Positions 39,933 through 46,384 of a stretch of DNA of 46,384 nucleotides are shown here, piece after piece. The stretch comes from Sandaracinus sp. (GTDB lineage: Bacteria; Myxococcota_A; Polyangia; Polyangiales; Houyiibacteriaceae): NCBI GenBank assembly GCA_002699025.1, contig PABA01000045.1, forward strand, positions 1 through 46,384, written 5' to 3'. The translations under genes and the position numbers were made by a program. The notes below the pieces were generated by a model. It worked only from the letters and a program-made list of their open reading frames with translations. It was not told the origin of the DNA and did not search any database. Position 1 is the stretch's first letter, and every line of letters starts with the position of its first letter.

Positions 39933-40850
39933 GCCGTCGAGGAGCGTGCGGACGCGGGCGAGGACCTCGGTCGGAGCCATGGGCTTGCGCCACCACTCGT
40001 CGGGGCCGCTCTCCGAGAGGTCCCAGCCGAGCTCCTCGGCGGAGGTGGCGCTGAGGATCACCACGCGCGCCTCGCCCTGCGCCTCGTGCCCCCGCACCAG
40101 CCGGCAGAGCGTGAGCCCGTCCGTGCCCGGCATCATCGCGTCGAGGAGCACCACCTCGAAGGGCGCGCCCTCGTCGAGCGCGGCGCGAACCTCCCGCTCG
40201 GTGCTCGCCGTCGTCACGGCGAAGCCCCCCATGCGCTCGAGCGTCATCGACACGAGCCGCAGGATGGTCGGCTCGTCGTCCACGACCAGCGCCCGCCGGG
40301 GCGGGGCGAGCTCGGTCTTCGCGCTCACCGGCGCCGCTCTGTGCTCGGCCTCGGCTTCTTGCTGCGCCGCGCTTCCCGGTGCCGCTCTGCGCTCGGCCTC
40401 GGCTTCTCGCTGCGCCGCGCTTCCCGGTGCCGCTCTGCGCTCGGCCTCGGCTTCCTCCTGCGCCGCGCTTCCCGGAGCCGCGCTTCCCGGAGCCCCGCCG
40501 CCCGTGGCCTCGCCCCGGGCGCTCGCCTCCGCCGCCACTCGTCGAGCCTCCGCGAGCAGCGCCTCCACGCGCGCCCCGAGCGCCTCGGCCCCTTCGCCGA
40601 TCCCCGTCTCCACCGCGCCCGCCCGCTCCGCGAGCTCCGCCCGGCCCTCCGCGCCGCCCCGGATCCGATGCGCCAGCCGGCGCACCTCCTCCGCCGCCTC
40701 CGCCTGCCCCGCGCGCCAGCGCCGCCAGGCCGCCTCGAGCGAGGCCGCCCGCTCCCCGAGCCCGGCCTCCCGCTCGCGCTTCAGCGCCCCCAGCCGGGCC
40801 TCGAAGGCGGCGAGCGGATCGGGATCGGGCTCCCCCCTTTCCTGTCCCAT
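39930..40850 (-). CDS. Hpt-like domain plus response-regulator receiver protein
   Basis: 306 aa from ATG 40850. Residues about 15-110 are helical and contain RRLAHRIRGGAEGR, resembling a histidine phosphotransfer (Hpt) motif with candidate His 61. Residues about 120-185 are a linker of three 48-bp repeats (AAPGSAAQxEAEAERR). Residues about 190-306 are a receiver: RRALVVDDEP, VVLLDAMMPGTDGL with the phospho-Asp, ILSATS and KPMAP with the conserved Lys. No output domain. It likely takes part in a phosphorelay. It is divergent from the kinase-receiver gene with only 33 bp between start codons, so the two are probably co-controlled. Confidence 0.85.
   Translation of the reverse strand: MGQERGEPDPDPLAAFEARLGALKREREAGLGERAASLEAAWRRWRAGQAEAAEEVRRLAHRIRGGAEGRAELAERAGAVETGIGEGAEALGARVEALLAEARRVAAEASARGEATGGGAPGSAAPGSAAQEEAEAERRAAPGSAAQREAEAERRAAPGSAAQQEAEAEHRAAPVSAKTELAPPRRALVVDDEPTILRLVSMTLERMGGFAVTTASTEREVRAALDEGAPFEVVLLDAMMPGTDGLTLCRLVRGHEAQGEARVVILSATSAEELGWDLSESGPDEWWRKPMAPTEVLARVRTLLDG
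40333..40476 (-). repeat. Three 48-bp in-frame repeats
   Basis: Units at 40333-40380, 40381-40428 and 40429-40476 encode a 16-residue Ala/Glu/Arg linker repeat in the Hpt-receiver protein. A partial unit follows. Confidence 0.92.
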
Positions 40851-40883: not shown

Positions 40884-42224
40884 ATGGGGGATGAACGCCG
40901 ATGGCGGCCGGGGACGCGATCCCAGGCCCTGCGGGTGGGGTCCGACGAGCTCGAGGATCTCGGCGACGAGACGGGGCTCCCGGACGGCCTTCGCGTGGGC
41001 GACCTCGTCGACGGCGTCTACCGCATCGAGCGCGTGCTCGGCCGGGGCGGCATGGGCGTCGTCTTCCTCGCCCGCGACGAGCGCCTCGAGCGCGACGTCG
41101 CCCTCAAGGTCATCGCGCCCCACGCCATCGCCGACGCCAACGCCCGCACGCTCTTCCAGACCGAGGCGCGCGCCATGGCCGGCGTCCGCCACGCGAACGT
41201 CGTGCAGATCTTCGCCTACGGCGAGGACGCCGCGCGCCGCCCCTTCTTCGCCATGGAGCACGTCCCGGGGGCCAGCGTCGCGGACTGGCTCGAGCGCTGG
41301 GCCGACCCCTCGACGGCCCCCTCCCTCGACGAGGTGCTCGGCATCCTCGAGCAGGTCTGCCGGGGCCTCGGCGCCATCCACGCCCAGGGCATCGTCCACG
41401 CCGACGTCAAGCCTGGCAACGTCCTGATCGGTCCCTCCTTCCGCGTCGCCGTCACCGACTTCGGGCTCGTCCGCGCCCTCGGCGAGAAGGACCGCAACGA
41501 GCTGGTCGTCGGCACGCCGGCGTTCATCGCCCCCGAGGTGGTCTACTCGCGCGAGCCGGTCTTCGACTCGCGCGCCGACGTCTACTCGGCCGGCGTCATG
41601 GCCTTCGAGATGCTCACCGGTGAGCTGCCCTTCCCGATCTCGAACGTCGGCGAGCTCTTCGACGTGCACCTGCGCAAGCTCCCGCCGCCCCGCCCCTCGG
41701 ACGTGCGCCCGGACCTGCCTCCGGCCTTCGACGAGGTCCTCCTCCGCGCCCTCGCGCGCGACGTCGAGGCCCGCTATCCGACGACGGACGCGCTTCGCAA
41801 GGCGCTCCTCGGGGCGCGCCAGTCGGTCGCCCTCGGCCCGCGCCGCGTGCGCGTCCTCCTCGCCGACGACGACCGCGACTTCCTCGCCCTCGGGCGCGAG
41901 GCGCTCACCTTCGCCTTCCCGGAGCCGGAGATCGTCGAGGCCACGGACGGGGAGGCGGCGCTCGCGGCCCTGGACGAGCGGCGCGCCGACCTCGCCGTCA
42001 TCGACCTCGACATGCCCGGCCTCAACGGCATCGAGCTCACGGCGGCGATCCGCGCGCGCCCGCACCTGAAGAAGATGCCGATCATCGTCGTCACGGCCTA
42101 CGGCGGCGGGAAGGACTGGCAGCTCCTCCAGGCCCTCGGCGCCGACGGCTTCCTGGTCAAGCCCCTCGACCCCTACGCGCTCGTCGCCATGGCCCGCCGC
42201 GCCGTCGGCCACGGCGAGGGCTGA
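40884..42224 (+). CDS. Ser/Thr protein kinase fused to a C-terminal receiver domain
   Basis: 446 aa. Kinase domain at residues about 46-315: glycine loop LGRGGMGVVF, VALK with Lys 75, catalytic loop VHADVKPGN (172-179), TDFGL (191-195), GTPAFIAPE. The usual HRD is HAD, so it is a non-RD kinase that may not need activation-loop phosphorylation. Receiver domain at about 325-446: VRVLLADDDRD, AVIDLDMPGLNG with phospho-Asp, VVTAYGGG and VKPLDPYAL. The fusion links eukaryotic-type kinase signalling with aspartate phosphorelay. No membrane segment, so cytoplasmic. The divergent Hpt-receiver gene is the obvious candidate phosphodonor or partner. The N-terminal ~40 residues are acidic and unassigned. 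Confidence 0.92.
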   Translation: MGDERRWRPGTRSQALRVGSDELEDLGDETGLPDGLRVGDLVDGVYRIERVLGRGGMGVVFLARDERLERDVALKVIAPHAIADANARTLFQTEARAMAGVRHANVVQIFAYGEDAARRPFFAMEHVPGASVADWLERWADPSTAPSLDEVLGILEQVCRGLGAIHAQGIVHADVKPGNVLIGPSFRVAVTDFGLVRALGEKDRNELVVGTPAFIAPEVVYSREPVFDSRADVYSAGVMAFEMLTGELPFPISNVGELFDVHLRKLPPPRPSDVRPDLPPAFDEVLLRALARDVEARYPTTDALRKALLGARQSVALGPRRVRVLLADDDRDFLALGREALTFAFPEPEIVEATDGEAALAALDERRADLAVIDLDMPGLNGIELTAAIRARPHLKKMPIIVVTAYGGGKDWQLLQALGADGFLVKPLDPYALVAMARRAVGHGEG

Positions 42225-42259
42225 GCGCGCATCTCGCCGCCTGTCCGCCCACCTTGGGG

Positions 42260-42265
42260 TACTCT
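42260..42265 (+). promoter_or_regulatory. TACTCT -10-like element, 8 nt before ATG 42274
   Basis: TANNNT element, spacing 8 nt, before the amidase gene; it lies 36 nt after the kinase-receiver stop, suggesting separate transcription. Confidence 0.4.
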
Positions 42266-42273
42266 CCCGCCCC

Positions 42274-43764
42274 ATGTTCGCCGACTACGATGAGCACGAC
42301 GCGCTGGGCCTCGCCGAGCTCGTGAAGCAGGGCCAGGTCAGCGCGGCCGAGCTCCTCGAGACCGCCATCGCGCGCCTCGAGAAGGTGAACCCGACGCTGA
42401 ACGCGGTCGTGCACACCATGTACGCGCCGGCGCGGGCCGCGGCGGAGCGTCCGGTAGCCGGCCCCTTCCAGGGCGTGCCCTTCCTGATCAAGGACCTCAT
42501 CCAGGACATCGCCGGCCAGCCGACGGTCGGCGGCTCGCGCTTCTGGCGGGGCTGGGTCGCCGATCGCGACTCGGAGCTCGTGCGCCGCTACCGCGCCGCG
42601 GGCCTCATCTTCTTCGGCAAGACGAACACCCCGGAGAACGGGCTCATGCCGGTCACCGAGCCGGAGGTCTTCGGCCCGACCCGCACGCCCTGGGACACGG
42701 GCCGCACCAGCGGCGGCTCGAGCGGCGGCGCGGGCGCGGCCATCGCCTCGGGCGTCGTGCCCATGGCCCACGGCGGCGACGGCGGCGGCTCCATCCGCAT
42801 CCCGGCCGCCTGCTGCGGCGTCTTCGGCCTCAAGCCGACCCGTGGGCGGACGCCCACCGGCCCCGGCGCGAGCGAGCAGTGGAACGGCTTCGCCATCGAG
42901 CACGTGCTCAGCCGGAGCGTGCGCGACAGCGCGGCGGCCCTCGACGCGGTGCGTGGCGCCGAGGACATCGCCCCCTACCACGCGCCCCACTTCGCCGGGC
43001 GCTACCTCGACGAGGTCGCCAAGGCGCCGGGCAAGCTGCGCATCGGCTTCCACGCCGAGCCGGCCATGCCCTCGGACGTGCACCCGGACTGCGTCGCCGC
43101 CGTGCAGGAGGTCGCGCAGCTCTGCGAGGAGCTCGGCCACCACGTCGAGGAGGTCCGCCCGGCCTTCGAGCCCATGGAGCTCGCCATGGCCTTCTACACG
43201 ATCGTCGCGTCCCAGACGGCGGCAGAGATCCACGAGGGCGAGGCGATCCGTGGGCGGAAGGCGCGCCCGGCCGACTACGAGACCGCGACCTGGCTCTCCG
43301 GGCAGATGGGCCGCGTCTTCACCGGCGCCGACTACGCCATCGCGCTCCGCCGGCTCCAGGCCGAGGCGCGGCGGCTCGTGCACCGGCTCGGCGACTACGA
43401 CCTCGTCCTCACGCCCACGCTCGGCCAGCCGCCCGTGAAGCTGGGGGCGCTGAAGCCGAGCGGCCCCGAGGCCGTCGTCCAGGACCTCGTCAAGAAGGCC
43501 AACCTGCGCGCGCCGCTCCGCCTCCCGGGGCTCCTCGAGAAGACCGTCGCCGAGGTCTTCGACTTCATCCCGTTCACGCCGGTCGCCAACTTCACGGGGC
43601 AGCCCGCCATGAGCGTGCCGCTCGTCTGGAAGAGCGGCCTCCCCATCGGGACCATGTTCACGGCCCGCTTCGGCGACGACGCCACGCTCTTTCGCTTCGC
43701 TCGCCAGCTCGAGGAGGCGCGCCCCTGGAAGGACCGGCGCCCGCCCGTGCACGCCGCGAGCTGA
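42274..43764 (+). CDS. Amidase-signature-family enzyme
   Basis: 496 aa, typical length. The Ser-cisSer-Lys triad is readable: Lys 73 (PFLIKDL), cis-Ser 149 in GRTSGGSSGGAGAA, nucleophile Ser 173 in GGDGGGSIRIPAACCGVFGLKPTRGR. The C-terminus has the family's FTPVANFTGQPAMSVPL. It hydrolyses a carboxylic amide to acid and ammonia; substrate unknown (6-aminohexanoate- or enantioselective-amidase-like enzymes share this form). No GatB or GatC neighbours, so not the tRNA amidotransferase subunit. No signal peptide. It ends just before a 15-bp repeat array, converging on the membrane kinase gene. Confidence 0.92.
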   Translation: MFADYDEHDALGLAELVKQGQVSAAELLETAIARLEKVNPTLNAVVHTMYAPARAAAERPVAGPFQGVPFLIKDLIQDIAGQPTVGGSRFWRGWVADRDSELVRRYRAAGLIFFGKTNTPENGLMPVTEPEVFGPTRTPWDTGRTSGGSSGGAGAAIASGVVPMAHGGDGGGSIRIPAACCGVFGLKPTRGRTPTGPGASEQWNGFAIEHVLSRSVRDSAAALDAVRGAEDIAPYHAPHFAGRYLDEVAKAPGKLRIGFHAEPAMPSDVHPDCVAAVQEVAQLCEELGHHVEEVRPAFEPMELAMAFYTIVASQTAAEIHEGEAIRGRKARPADYETATWLSGQMGRVFTGADYAIALRRLQAEARRLVHRLGDYDLVLTPTLGQPPVKLGALKPSGPEAVVQDLVKKANLRAPLRLPGLLEKTVAEVFDFIPFTPVANFTGQPAMSVPLVWKSGLPIGTMFTARFGDDATLFRFARQLEEARPWKDRRPPVHAAS

Positions 43765-43775
43765 GCGCCGCCCCG

Positions 43776-43865
43776 GTCGGCGGTGGCCAGCTCGGCGGTG
43801 GCCAGCTCGGCGGTGGCCAGCTCGGCGGCGGCCAGCTCGGCGGCGGCCAGCTCAGCGCCGGCCGG
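43776..43865. repeat. 15-bp tandem repeat array overlapping the kinase stop codon
   Basis: Five near-identical 15-bp units (CTCGGCGGTGGCCAG type) at 43776-43850 and a sixth degenerate unit at 43851-43865 that contains the minus-strand stop (TCA at 43852-43854). Read on the minus strand in the kinase frame, the units beyond the stop encode AGRRR/AGHRR. Confidence 0.9.
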
Positions 43866-45663
43866 TGTCCGTGTCGAGCTCGGGCGGCGCGTGGAGCTCT
43901 CCGGGCACGAGCTGCTGGATCTGCCACACGTAGCGCAGGAGTTTGTGCTCGGTCTTCACCAGGTTGTCCCGCGTGCGCCCGGCCTGGATGCCGGGGATGG
44001 ACGCCGTGAGCACGGCCCAGGCCGCGAGCATCCCCCAGGTGAGCGCCGGCGGGAGCTCGAGCAGGCGCGGGATGATGTGGATGCCCTCGCCGTCGATCAC
44101 GAAGGTCGGAGGCCACAGCCCGAGCGCCTCCCCGGCGAAGACCGCGCCCGTGCCGAGGGCGGTGAGCACGACGAAGATGCCGCGCTCCTGCGGCGTCACG
44201 TGCGCCGCGAAGTACATGAGGTTCGTCGCCATCAGCGAGGGCACGACGAGGAGCGGGCTGAAGGCCGGGACGAAGAAGAGCAGCGAGAGCGTGCTCAGCA
44301 CGTAGACCGCGGTCGTCGCGGGCGCCCCGCGGACCGAGCCGCGCGCGTGCAGGATGGCCAAGCCGAAGCAGCCGACGAGCAGCGTCGAGCAGGTCGCGAA
44401 GAGCCAGCCGATGCGCACGCCCATCGCGAGGTAGACCGGGAGGAAGGCGAGCCAGAGCCCATAACGCCAGGCGCTGACCTTCGCCGCCCGCCGCCGCGCC
44501 CGCTCGAGCCACTCGGCGAGCGCCACCTTCGCCCCCTCCGGGAGCTGCTTCGGCGGGTCGACGAGGAGCTGTGCGAGGAGCTCCGTCGCGGGCCGGGACT
44601 GCGGATCGAGCGCCAGCGCCCGGGCCAGCTCCCGGGTCGCCTCGGGCCGCTTCTCGTCCCCCTCGTCGACGAGCGCGACCGCGCGCTTGACGTGCTCCCG
44701 CGCGAGCTTGCGCCGCAGCTCGTGGTCCCGGTCGCCCTCGAGGAAGCTCTCGATCCCGTTCGCGAGCTCCCCGGCGCTCTGCAGGCGCTGCTCCGGATCC
44801 ACGTGCGTCGCCCGCACGCAGAGCTCCTCGAGCTCGGGGGGCACGTCCAGGTCCGGGAAGCGCACCGAGGGCCGCGCGTCGATGCCCTCGATGGTCTTCG
44901 AGATGCGCTTGCGCGTCTCCTGCGCCGGGTTCGCCCGCTCGAGCGTCAGCAGCTCGAAGAGGATGCAGCCGAGCGAGTAGACGTCCGCCGTCGGCCCGGT
45001 CTCCGTGTCGCCGAGGGCCTGCTCGGGCGACATGTAGCCGGGCGTCCCGAGCGAGCTCCCGGCCTCCGTCACCTCGAGCTCGTCGTCGGGCACGTCGCTC
45101 GAGGTGGGGCGCCCGTCGACGGCGTCGCCGGTCAGCTTCGCGATGCCCCAGTCGAGCAGGTAGACCTCGCCGAAGCGACCCACCATCACGTTCGCCGGCG
45201 TCACGTCCCGATGCACCACGCCGCGGTCGTGCGCGTAGTCGAGCGCGCGGCAGATCTGCACGAAGATCTGCAGGAGCTTGTTCCGCCGATAGCGCGCCGT
45301 GCTGTCCCCGCTCGCCAGCCGCTCGAAGATGTCGGCGAGCGTCTCCCCGCGCACCCGGCGCATCGTGAACCAGGCGCGCGCGCTCTCTCCGTCGTCGTCC
45401 TCGGCCTCGTGCTCCCCCATGTCGTACACGGGGACGAGCGCCGGGTGCTCGAGCCGCGCCTGGATGCGCGCCTCCCGCAAGAAGCGCCCGCGCTCCTCCG
45501 GCCTCTCCGCGGCCTCCGGCCGCATCACCTTCAGCGCCACGTCGCGGCCGACCTGCTCGTCCCGGCAGAGCGCGACGTCGCCCATGCCGCCGGCCCCGAG
45601 CCTCTTCTGGAAGCTGTACCGGCCCTCGAGGTCCGCCGGCAGCTTCACGCTCTCTTCCCCCAT
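43852..45663 (-). CDS. Membrane Ser/Thr protein kinase with multi-helix C-terminal domain
   Basis: 603 aa from ATG 45663, positioned by TATGCT 6 nt upstream. Kinase domain at residues about 17-330: LGAGGMGDVAL, VALK with Lys 45, VVHRDVTPANVMV (151-161), DWGIAK for DFG, GTPGYMSPEQA. The Thr in HRDVTPAN replaces the usual Lys, as in many myxobacterial kinases (HRDVSPQN type). Residues about 330-390 are helical and TPR-like (LARALALDPQSRPATELLAQLLV). Residues about 394-560 hold about six membrane helices (LWLAFLPVYLAMGVRIGWLF ... LTWGMLAAWAVLTASI), which may sense membrane or envelope state. The short cytoplasmic tail ends inside a repeat unit. Divergent from the SUF regulator. Confidence 0.92.
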   Translation of the reverse strand: MGEESVKLPADLEGRYSFQKRLGAGGMGDVALCRDEQVGRDVALKVMRPEAAERPEERGRFLREARIQARLEHPALVPVYDMGEHEAEDDDGESARAWFTMRRVRGETLADIFERLASGDSTARYRRNKLLQIFVQICRALDYAHDRGVVHRDVTPANVMVGRFGEVYLLDWGIAKLTGDAVDGRPTSSDVPDDELEVTEAGSSLGTPGYMSPEQALGDTETGPTADVYSLGCILFELLTLERANPAQETRKRISKTIEGIDARPSVRFPDLDVPPELEELCVRATHVDPEQRLQSAGELANGIESFLEGDRDHELRRKLAREHVKRAVALVDEGDEKRPEATRELARALALDPQSRPATELLAQLLVDPPKQLPEGAKVALAEWLERARRRAAKVSAWRYGLWLAFLPVYLAMGVRIGWLFATCSTLLVGCFGLAILHARGSVRGAPATTAVYVLSTLSLLFFVPAFSPLLVVPSLMATNLMYFAAHVTPQERGIFVVLTALGTGAVFAGEALGLWPPTFVIDGEGIHIIPRLLELPPALTWGMLAAWAVLTASIPGIQAGRTRDNLVKTEHKLLRYVWQIQQLVPGELHAPPELDTDTGRR

Positions 45664-45669
45664 GCCGCC

Positions 45670-45675
45670 AGCATA
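45670..45675 (-). promoter_or_regulatory. TATGCT -10-like element, 6 nt before start 45663
   Basis: Minus-strand TATGCT with 6-nt spacing to ATG 45663, predicting a leaderless kinase mRNA. Confidence 0.5.
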
Positions 45676-45730
45676 GGGGAAACGGGCGGCCCGGGTCGGC
45701 TCTGCGGCGCCCGGCGCCCGGTCTTTCACC

Positions 45731-45776
45731 TTGCGAGCCACCGGCCCGGACCCTAGATAGTGGACCGTGCAGGTCC
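45731..45776 (+). promoter_or_regulatory. Candidate promoter and operator of the SUF regulator
   Basis: TTGCGA (45731-45736), 17-bp spacer, TAGATA (45754-45759): a good housekeeping-sigma promoter match. The inverted repeat GGACC-GTGCA-GGTCC (45762-45776) covers the expected transcription start and could be an autoregulatory operator. The leader to GTG 45834 would be about 68 nt. Confidence 0.45.
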
Positions 45777-45833: not shown

Positions 45834-46384
45834 GTGCTGCGCATCTCCAAGCTGACCGACTACGGCGTCGTGCTGGCCACCCACCTGGCGGGCCAGGACG
45901 CGCCGCGCTCCGTCCGGGATCTCGCCCGCGAGACGGGGATCCCGCAGCCGACCGTCTCCAAGGTCCTCAAGACCCTCGCGAAGGCGGGGCTCGTCAGCTC
46001 GACGCGCGGCGCCCGCGGCGGCTACGCGCTCGCCCGGCCGGCCTCCCGCGTGCCCATCAGCGACGTGATCGCCGCCCTGGAGGGGCCGATCGCCGTCACC
46101 GAATGCACGGACGAGAGCGCCGACCCCTGCGACTACGAGCGGCGCTGCGGCGTGCGCGCCAACTGGCAGCGCATCAACGAGGCGGTCCAGAGCGCCCTCG
46201 CCGAGATCACCCTCGCCGAGATGGCGATGAGCTCGCCGCCGCCGCTGGTCGCCCTCGCCCGCGACCGGGCCGAGGCCGCCGAGCGCCGCGCCAGCGCCAC
46301 CGAGCCCGGCGTCACCGAGCCCAGCGTCACCGAGCCCAGCGTCACCGAGCCCAGCGTCACCGAGCCCAGCGTCACCGAGCCCAG
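45834..46384 (+). CDS. Rrf2-family SUF-system regulator, 3' end outside window
   Basis: At least 183 codons, running off the right edge without a stop. The start is GTG 45834, giving VLRISKLTDYGVVLATHLA, the characteristic opening of the SUF-type Rrf2 regulators. A winged helix follows (IPQPTVSKVLKTLAKAGLVSSTRGARGGY). The cluster-binding Cys are 91, 99 and 105 (ECTDESADPCDYERRCGVRANW). Such proteins sense Fe-S status and control suf operons, usually located directly downstream; sufB and partners are therefore expected just beyond the window. Unusual: after the normal end at about residue 140 there is an Ala/Glu stretch and then at least five VTEPS repeats encoded by 15-bp units. Confidence 0.93.
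   Translation, partial: MLRISKLTDYGVVLATHLAGQDAPRSVRDLARETGIPQPTVSKVLKTLAKAGLVSSTRGARGGYALARPASRVPISDVIAALEGPIAVTECTDESADPCDYERRCGVRANWQRINEAVQSALAEITLAEMAMSSPPPLVALARDRAEAAERRASATEPGVTEPSVTEPSVTEPSVTEPSVTEP
46296..46384 (+). repeat. 15-bp in-frame tandem repeats (VTEPS) at right edge
   Basis: A variant unit at 46296-46310 and then GTCACCGAGCCCAGC at 46311, 46326, 46341, 46356 and 46371 (cut by the edge). All are in the reading frame of the Rrf2 regulator; the total length is unknown. Confidence 0.95.

Follow-up and report, generated by a model that had tools for sequence, protein, structure and literature searches.

Within the window analyzed here, a stretch of 46,384 nucleotides that makes up one whole contig (C56) of a 9.24-Mb assembly in 238 contigs, the stop codon of a protein kinase gene lies inside a 15-bp repeat unit. 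The locus raises the question of whether the repeat made the end of the kinase, as an earlier note on this DNA held, or grew beside a stop codon that was already there. The features concerned are as follows.

42274..43764, plus strand: amidase of 496 residues, convergent with the kinase (Pfam Amidase PF01425, E = 7.6e-94).
43852..45663, minus strand: Ser/Thr protein kinase of 603 residues (Pfam Pkinase PF00069, E = 1.5e-39).
43777..43857, no strand: 15-bp tandem array, unit TCGGCGGTGGCCAGC on the plus strand / TCGGCGGCGGCCAGC; five full copies plus 6 bases.
43852..43866, no strand: degenerate sixth copy at the right edge of the array; contains the kinase stop codon (TCA on the plus strand, TGA on the minus strand) and the last codons, G-R-R.
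43762..43776, no strand: possible degenerate copy at the left edge; begins with the amidase stop codon TGA and has 9/15 matches to the inner unit.
42157..43851, minus strand: open frame entered on read-through of the kinase stop codon; 564 codons, antisense to the amidase.

The array was located by TRF at 43777-43857 with a period of 15, 5.4 copies, 96% matches and a score of 141. The top score among 300 dinucleotide shuffles of the 250-bp region was 64, which confirms that the repeat is present. Its units are arranged head to tail, fall in the size range of approximately 10-100 bp and exceed chance, as expected of a bacterial minisatellite. The gap between amidase and kinase is 87 bp and is nearly all occupied by the array, and the two stop codons are exactly 90 bp, or six units, apart.

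The kinase TGA (43854-43852, minus strand) is inside the sixth copy at a position where the inner copies have CGA, just as the earlier note had seen. The hexamer CTCGGC that the note assigned to the other five units is found in four of them; the first copy reads GTCGGC. The sixth unit exists, but it is degenerate: TRF counts 6 bases of it, and it has 11/15 matches to the inner unit. Its resemblance to the unit is nonetheless unusual, as at least 11 matches are reached by 3 of 319 stop-anchored 15-mers, with the kinase's own counted among the three. The 9/15 matches of the left edge are reached by 28/319 stops, which is not significant, and the left edge was not accepted as a true degenerate copy on this count alone. 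The left and right edge copies match each other at 11/15 positions (P = 0.003-0.005 for random stop pairs, in a test chosen post hoc). The array could have grown from a sequence common to both edges.

Translation of the kinase frame past the TGA gives AGRRR AGRRR AGHRR AGHRR AGHRR, in agreement with the description in the note of a frame that stays open through these units. The next stop codon is 564 codons on, at 42157-42159. A single TGA to CGA transition does open the frame, and read-through would enter it as well, but the tail would be altered by 564 residues and not by the roughly 30 that had been proposed. The 564-codon frame has no Pfam family match and is not a gene by the tests applied. 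The amidase frame is also open behind its own stop codon, for 663 codons (43765-45756, plus strand) antisense to the kinase. The GC content is 75%, and long antisense frames are expected in sequence of this composition. Because the frame is open for 564 codons at high GC and lacks a Pfam match, the tail added by a TGA to CGA change would be long and probably meaningless.

The array was next considered as an RNA or regulatory element. No intrinsic terminator (a GC-rich hairpin followed by a T run) was detected at 43500-44100, RNA folding at the array showed no excess (z = -0.17 and 0.32), and the array had no Rfam match. These terminator, folding and Rfam searches rule out a terminator or structured RNA at the array. 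A search beside the array found no promoter-like site.

Kinase matches at E = 1e-60 or better were found in 24/57 genomes searched, with the host genome included. Outside the host genome, 25 of 29 loci were examined after partial matches (L028, L030, L031 and L032) were excluded, and one of these (L026) is cut off by the end of its contig. In the 24 kinases whose ends could be read, the stop codon comes 1-29 residues past a conserved Q-L-V-P-like motif. The distance is 16 residues in the window's kinase and 19 and 24 residues in its two nearest orthologues. The earlier note had named relatives with the same kinase and stop but no repeat as the observation that would count against a repeat-derived end, and 22/24 related kinases are of this kind, being free of arrays to a distance of 60 bp from the stop codon. 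Ends at 1-29 residues together with 22/24 kinases lacking an array argue that the kinase end was not made by the repeat beyond perhaps its last codons. Judged by its relatives, the position of the kinase stop codon is ordinary for the family. The array could touch the last kinase codons at most, and the proposal that the C terminus is derived from the repeat finds no support beyond, at most, the final GRR codons, since relatives stop at a similar place. Close relatives of the C-terminal part of the kinase were not found in GTDB contigs. The letters D-T-G occur just before the stop codon in both the window's kinase (DTGRR) and that of G010 (DTGV) when compared by eye, but these letters are unaligned in the alignment.

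The two exceptions are the nearest orthologues, L010 in G010 and L011 in G015, which are 55 and 54% identical to the window's kinase. The arrays near their stop codons have units of 58 and 16 bp, respectively, that are unrelated to the unit in the window. In G010 the kinase stop codon is followed at 8, 22 and 34 bp by the starts of three TRF rows that overlap one another, and in G015 by a single row starting at 14 bp. For comparison, the 257 stops sampled in G010 yield 14 pairs of array and stop codon within -15 to +30 bp, which sets the base rate. G010 and G015 belong to one genus and the convergent neighbors behind their kinases are similar (46% over 277 residues), so the two arrays may not be independent and may go back to a single inherited site. 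In G010, a weakly called frame of 97 residues separates the kinase from the convergent neighbor. The arrays behind these two kinases may hint at a site prone to arrays, as a lead from two cases chosen after the fact. An amidase beside the kinase was found in 0/25 related loci, with flanks of 1.5 kb at most.

The order in which stop codons and arrays arose was examined using other genes. Four genes of the host genome with stop-spanning arrays, and the amidase, were compared with their orthologues from as many as six genomes in the family, and an array was counted if it had a TRF score of at least 50 and started no more than 60 bp before or 150 bp behind the stop codon. Twenty-one of 28 orthologue loci were examined, with L151-L155 (partial, 34-37%), L176 (a fragment) and L177 (a 41% paralogue) excluded. 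None of the 21 has an array near its stop codon. One array-ended gene has the ending LF-stop in the host genome and in 6/6 orthologues, and the ends of the other genes differ from their orthologues by some residues. The match of one gene extends only to residue 888 of 931, so its end is not comparable and is silent on the order of events.

In the reverse comparison, four G010 genes with arrays close behind the stop codon were searched and three were compared; the fourth gave partial matches of 35-38% (L225-L228, excluded), and a fragment (L223) was also excluded. The same array was found in 0/8 homologues from G015 or the host genome. Two host-genome homologues of one gene, L230 and L231, each have an unrelated array, which lies 77 bp past the stop codon in one and 32 bp past it in the other, and L220 has a weak array with a score of 53. 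One G010 gene with a 14-bp array ends in GEAF- or GESF-stop in G010 and in 4/4 homologues, and the G010 array is present in 0/4. In genes with such identical ends the stop codon is, by sequence comparison, older than the array. We infer the same order for the kinase from its distant relatives. The window's array appears to be lineage-specific as far as tested.

The abundance of arrays was determined in a host-genome sample of 60 stretches totaling 1.087 Mb, with 841 called genes and 809 stops. Most of these stretches begin at a contig end, where repeats may be more frequent. Gaps contain 158 arrays, at densities of 2.03 per kb (convergent gaps), 0.97 per kb (tandem) and 0.65 per kb (divergent) compared with 0.14 per kb in coding DNA, where genes were called by a simple codon-usage caller and missed genes would inflate the intergenic counts. 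An array is present in 49/126 convergent gaps, and five shuffles of the gap DNA gave 0 or 1 arrays each. Arrays cover 30/809 stop codons versus 5 start codons. When the arrays were slid randomly within their gaps, 19.2 stop-overlapping gap arrays were expected and 26 were seen (P = 0.051), and 46 array edges were seen near stop codons versus 38.4 by random placement (P = 0.058). G010 and G043 show no excess of stop overlap or near-stop edges over random placement. A strong attraction of arrays to stop codons was rejected, being weakly indicated in the host genome and absent from the other two. Overlap near the random expectation indicates that stop overlap is mainly a product of abundant gap arrays.

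None of the 30 stop-spanning arrays extends further into its gene than one unit plus 3 bases. Their periods show no clear bias to multiples of three (13/30 versus 125/130 for coding arrays). Gap arrays in the host genome do have an excess of periods divisible by three (72/158), which neutrality by itself does not account for; coding ends that were missed could be the cause. The near-stop table holds 58 arrays, 29 of them with the whole stop codon, and the thirtieth stop-spanning array extended for fewer than 30 bp past its stop codon. In the 29, the unit after the stop codon carries the same stop triplet in 17 cases, CGA, like the window's array, in 2 and another triplet in 10, and TGA and CGA copies are mixed within some arrays near stop codons. 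The arrays at other stop codons are built from other units.

Parts of a 251-bp query from the window match 14 other places in the genome at 73-96%. Seven matching regions were examined; the match is inside a called gene in five, and a 15-bp array lies at a gene end in two (L041 and L045). L045 resembles the window: its gene end has TGA, and CGA follows at distances of 15 and 30 bp. In L041 the first CGA is 18 bp behind the stop codon, 3 bases out of register, and two of the next copies have CGC. Array density per 10 kb is 3.02 in the host genome, 2.02 in G010, 1.40 in G043, 1.05 in G007 and 0.83 in G001, where overall array density was the only measure taken (334 codons are too few to train the gene caller). 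Of these five, only the host genome (79/328) and G010 (26/81) have 11-17-bp units at high frequency.

The array is very probably an ordinary, protein-neutral minisatellite that was probably gained recently and grew in the convergent gap beside a pre-existing stop codon. The host would supply the setting, as a repeat-rich, very GC-rich genome of myxobacterial type. Minisatellites arise and change by slippage or unequal exchange. Here a stretch of approximately 15 bp beside or across the stop codon would have been repeated in tandem, by duplication or slippage. Turnover would then have homogenized the middle copies while the edges drifted, leaving TGA in the edge copy and CGA in the inner copies, which are more alike. 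The protein would be unaffected because translation still meets the first stop codon before any of the added copies. With no cost to the protein, arrays would accumulate between genes and could reach or overrun stop codons, though by no more than about one unit. The array itself is presumably neutral.

The TGA at the edge and the CGA of the inner copies could also be read as the trace of a kinase that was once longer, with a repeat-coded tail that a CGA to TGA change in the first unit shortened, leaving the present C terminus as a remnant. The 15-bp unit keeps the kinase frame open through all units, and 15-bp units are common among the coding arrays of the host genome (22/130). This history is nonetheless unlikely: related kinases end at a similar distance from the motif (1-29 residues, with 16 here and 19 and 24 in the nearest), the orthologues of other array-ended genes have their stop codons without an array, and the 564-codon frame runs antisense to a conserved amidase and is likely open because of base composition. 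That one transition opens the frame also leaves room for a leaky or switchable stop codon, with the array as a C-terminal extension regulated by read-through or phase variation, but we regard this as extremely improbable. The extension would have 564 residues and no Pfam match, gain or loss of units behind the stop codon leaves the protein the same, a 15-bp unit never shifts the frame, and the array is missing from 22/24 related kinases. Read-through would be recognized by a conserved extended frame with coding features; what was found is a 564-codon antisense frame and 13/30 periods divisible by three. The length of the frame, the Pfam result, the ends of related kinases and the statistics of array periods led to the rejection of a coding tail and of read-through.

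On a third reading the array has a function in keeping convergent genes apart, as a spacer or barrier, and is selected for its position and not its sequence. Convergent gaps are the richest in arrays (49/126), and behind both of the closest kinase orthologues there is likewise an array, of an unrelated unit. We consider a spacer very unlikely, as near-stop edges and stop overlap are close to random placement (P = 0.058 and 0.051), all 21 orthologues examined for five other genes lack an array near their stop codons, and the site has neither unusual folding nor a terminator-like element. The recurrence of unrelated units behind the kinase would also suit a broader proposal, to which we give little credence, that some gene ends including that of the kinase are standing sites of array birth or are selected as spacers, with the sequence free to vary. 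Linked to this is the idea that the edge TGA could be erased by copying from neighboring CGA units; if so, the kinase would gain 564 residues.

The array on the preferred reading, a minisatellite beside an older stop codon, resembles bacterial minisatellites or VNTRs in having short head-to-tail units between genes. VNTRs are also defined by variation in copy number among strains, and the window's array is described from one genome. In the portions of one paper that were covered, the rnc-fpg1 repeat region of Mycobacterium tuberculosis fills an intergenic gap from 40 bp after the rnc stop codon to the fpg1 start codon, occurs in one lineage with relatives outside it having a gap of a few bases, and lies upstream of a gene whose expression is linked to the length of the array (PMC2734929). 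The window's array likewise fills the gap between two genes; unlike the rnc-fpg1 array as described in those portions, it lies between two gene ends with no promoter-like site found beside it (PMC2734929).

A second comparison is with the MIRU elements of mycobacteria. MIRUs form one homologous family. According to the same portions of the paper, they occupy 41 chromosomal places, as related units no longer than 100 bp, and the window's array resembles them, so far as described there, in having repeat units between genes (PMC2734929). The unit in the window differs in being 15 bp long, and arrays at other stop codons have other units, so a single homologous unit family at many intergenic sites was not seen for this array. 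Among the titles and abstract openings found in a literature search, none dealt with stop-codon arrays in myxobacteria. Intergenic tandem repeats are not treated in the portions covered of a review (PMC8538405).

The feature in the window is ordinary by itself. It carries the warning that, in GC-rich genomes, a stop codon inside a repeat or a long frame behind a stop codon should not be taken for a functional tail. The array-rich convergent gaps (49/126) and the arrays that seldom match between orthologous ends would make this a good system for studying the birth of minisatellites beside stop codons.

Other repeats were seen in the same window. Both contig ends, 1-71 and 46291-46384, are within tandem arrays (24-bp and 15-bp units, respectively), which suggests the assembly broke at repeats. 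An Rrf2-type regulator at 45834-46384 has C-terminal repeated VTEPS units from a 15-bp array and is truncated by the contig end. A 48-bp array of 3.4 copies at 40320-40481 lies in a minus-strand frame, the end of which resembles a response-regulator receiver domain by eye.
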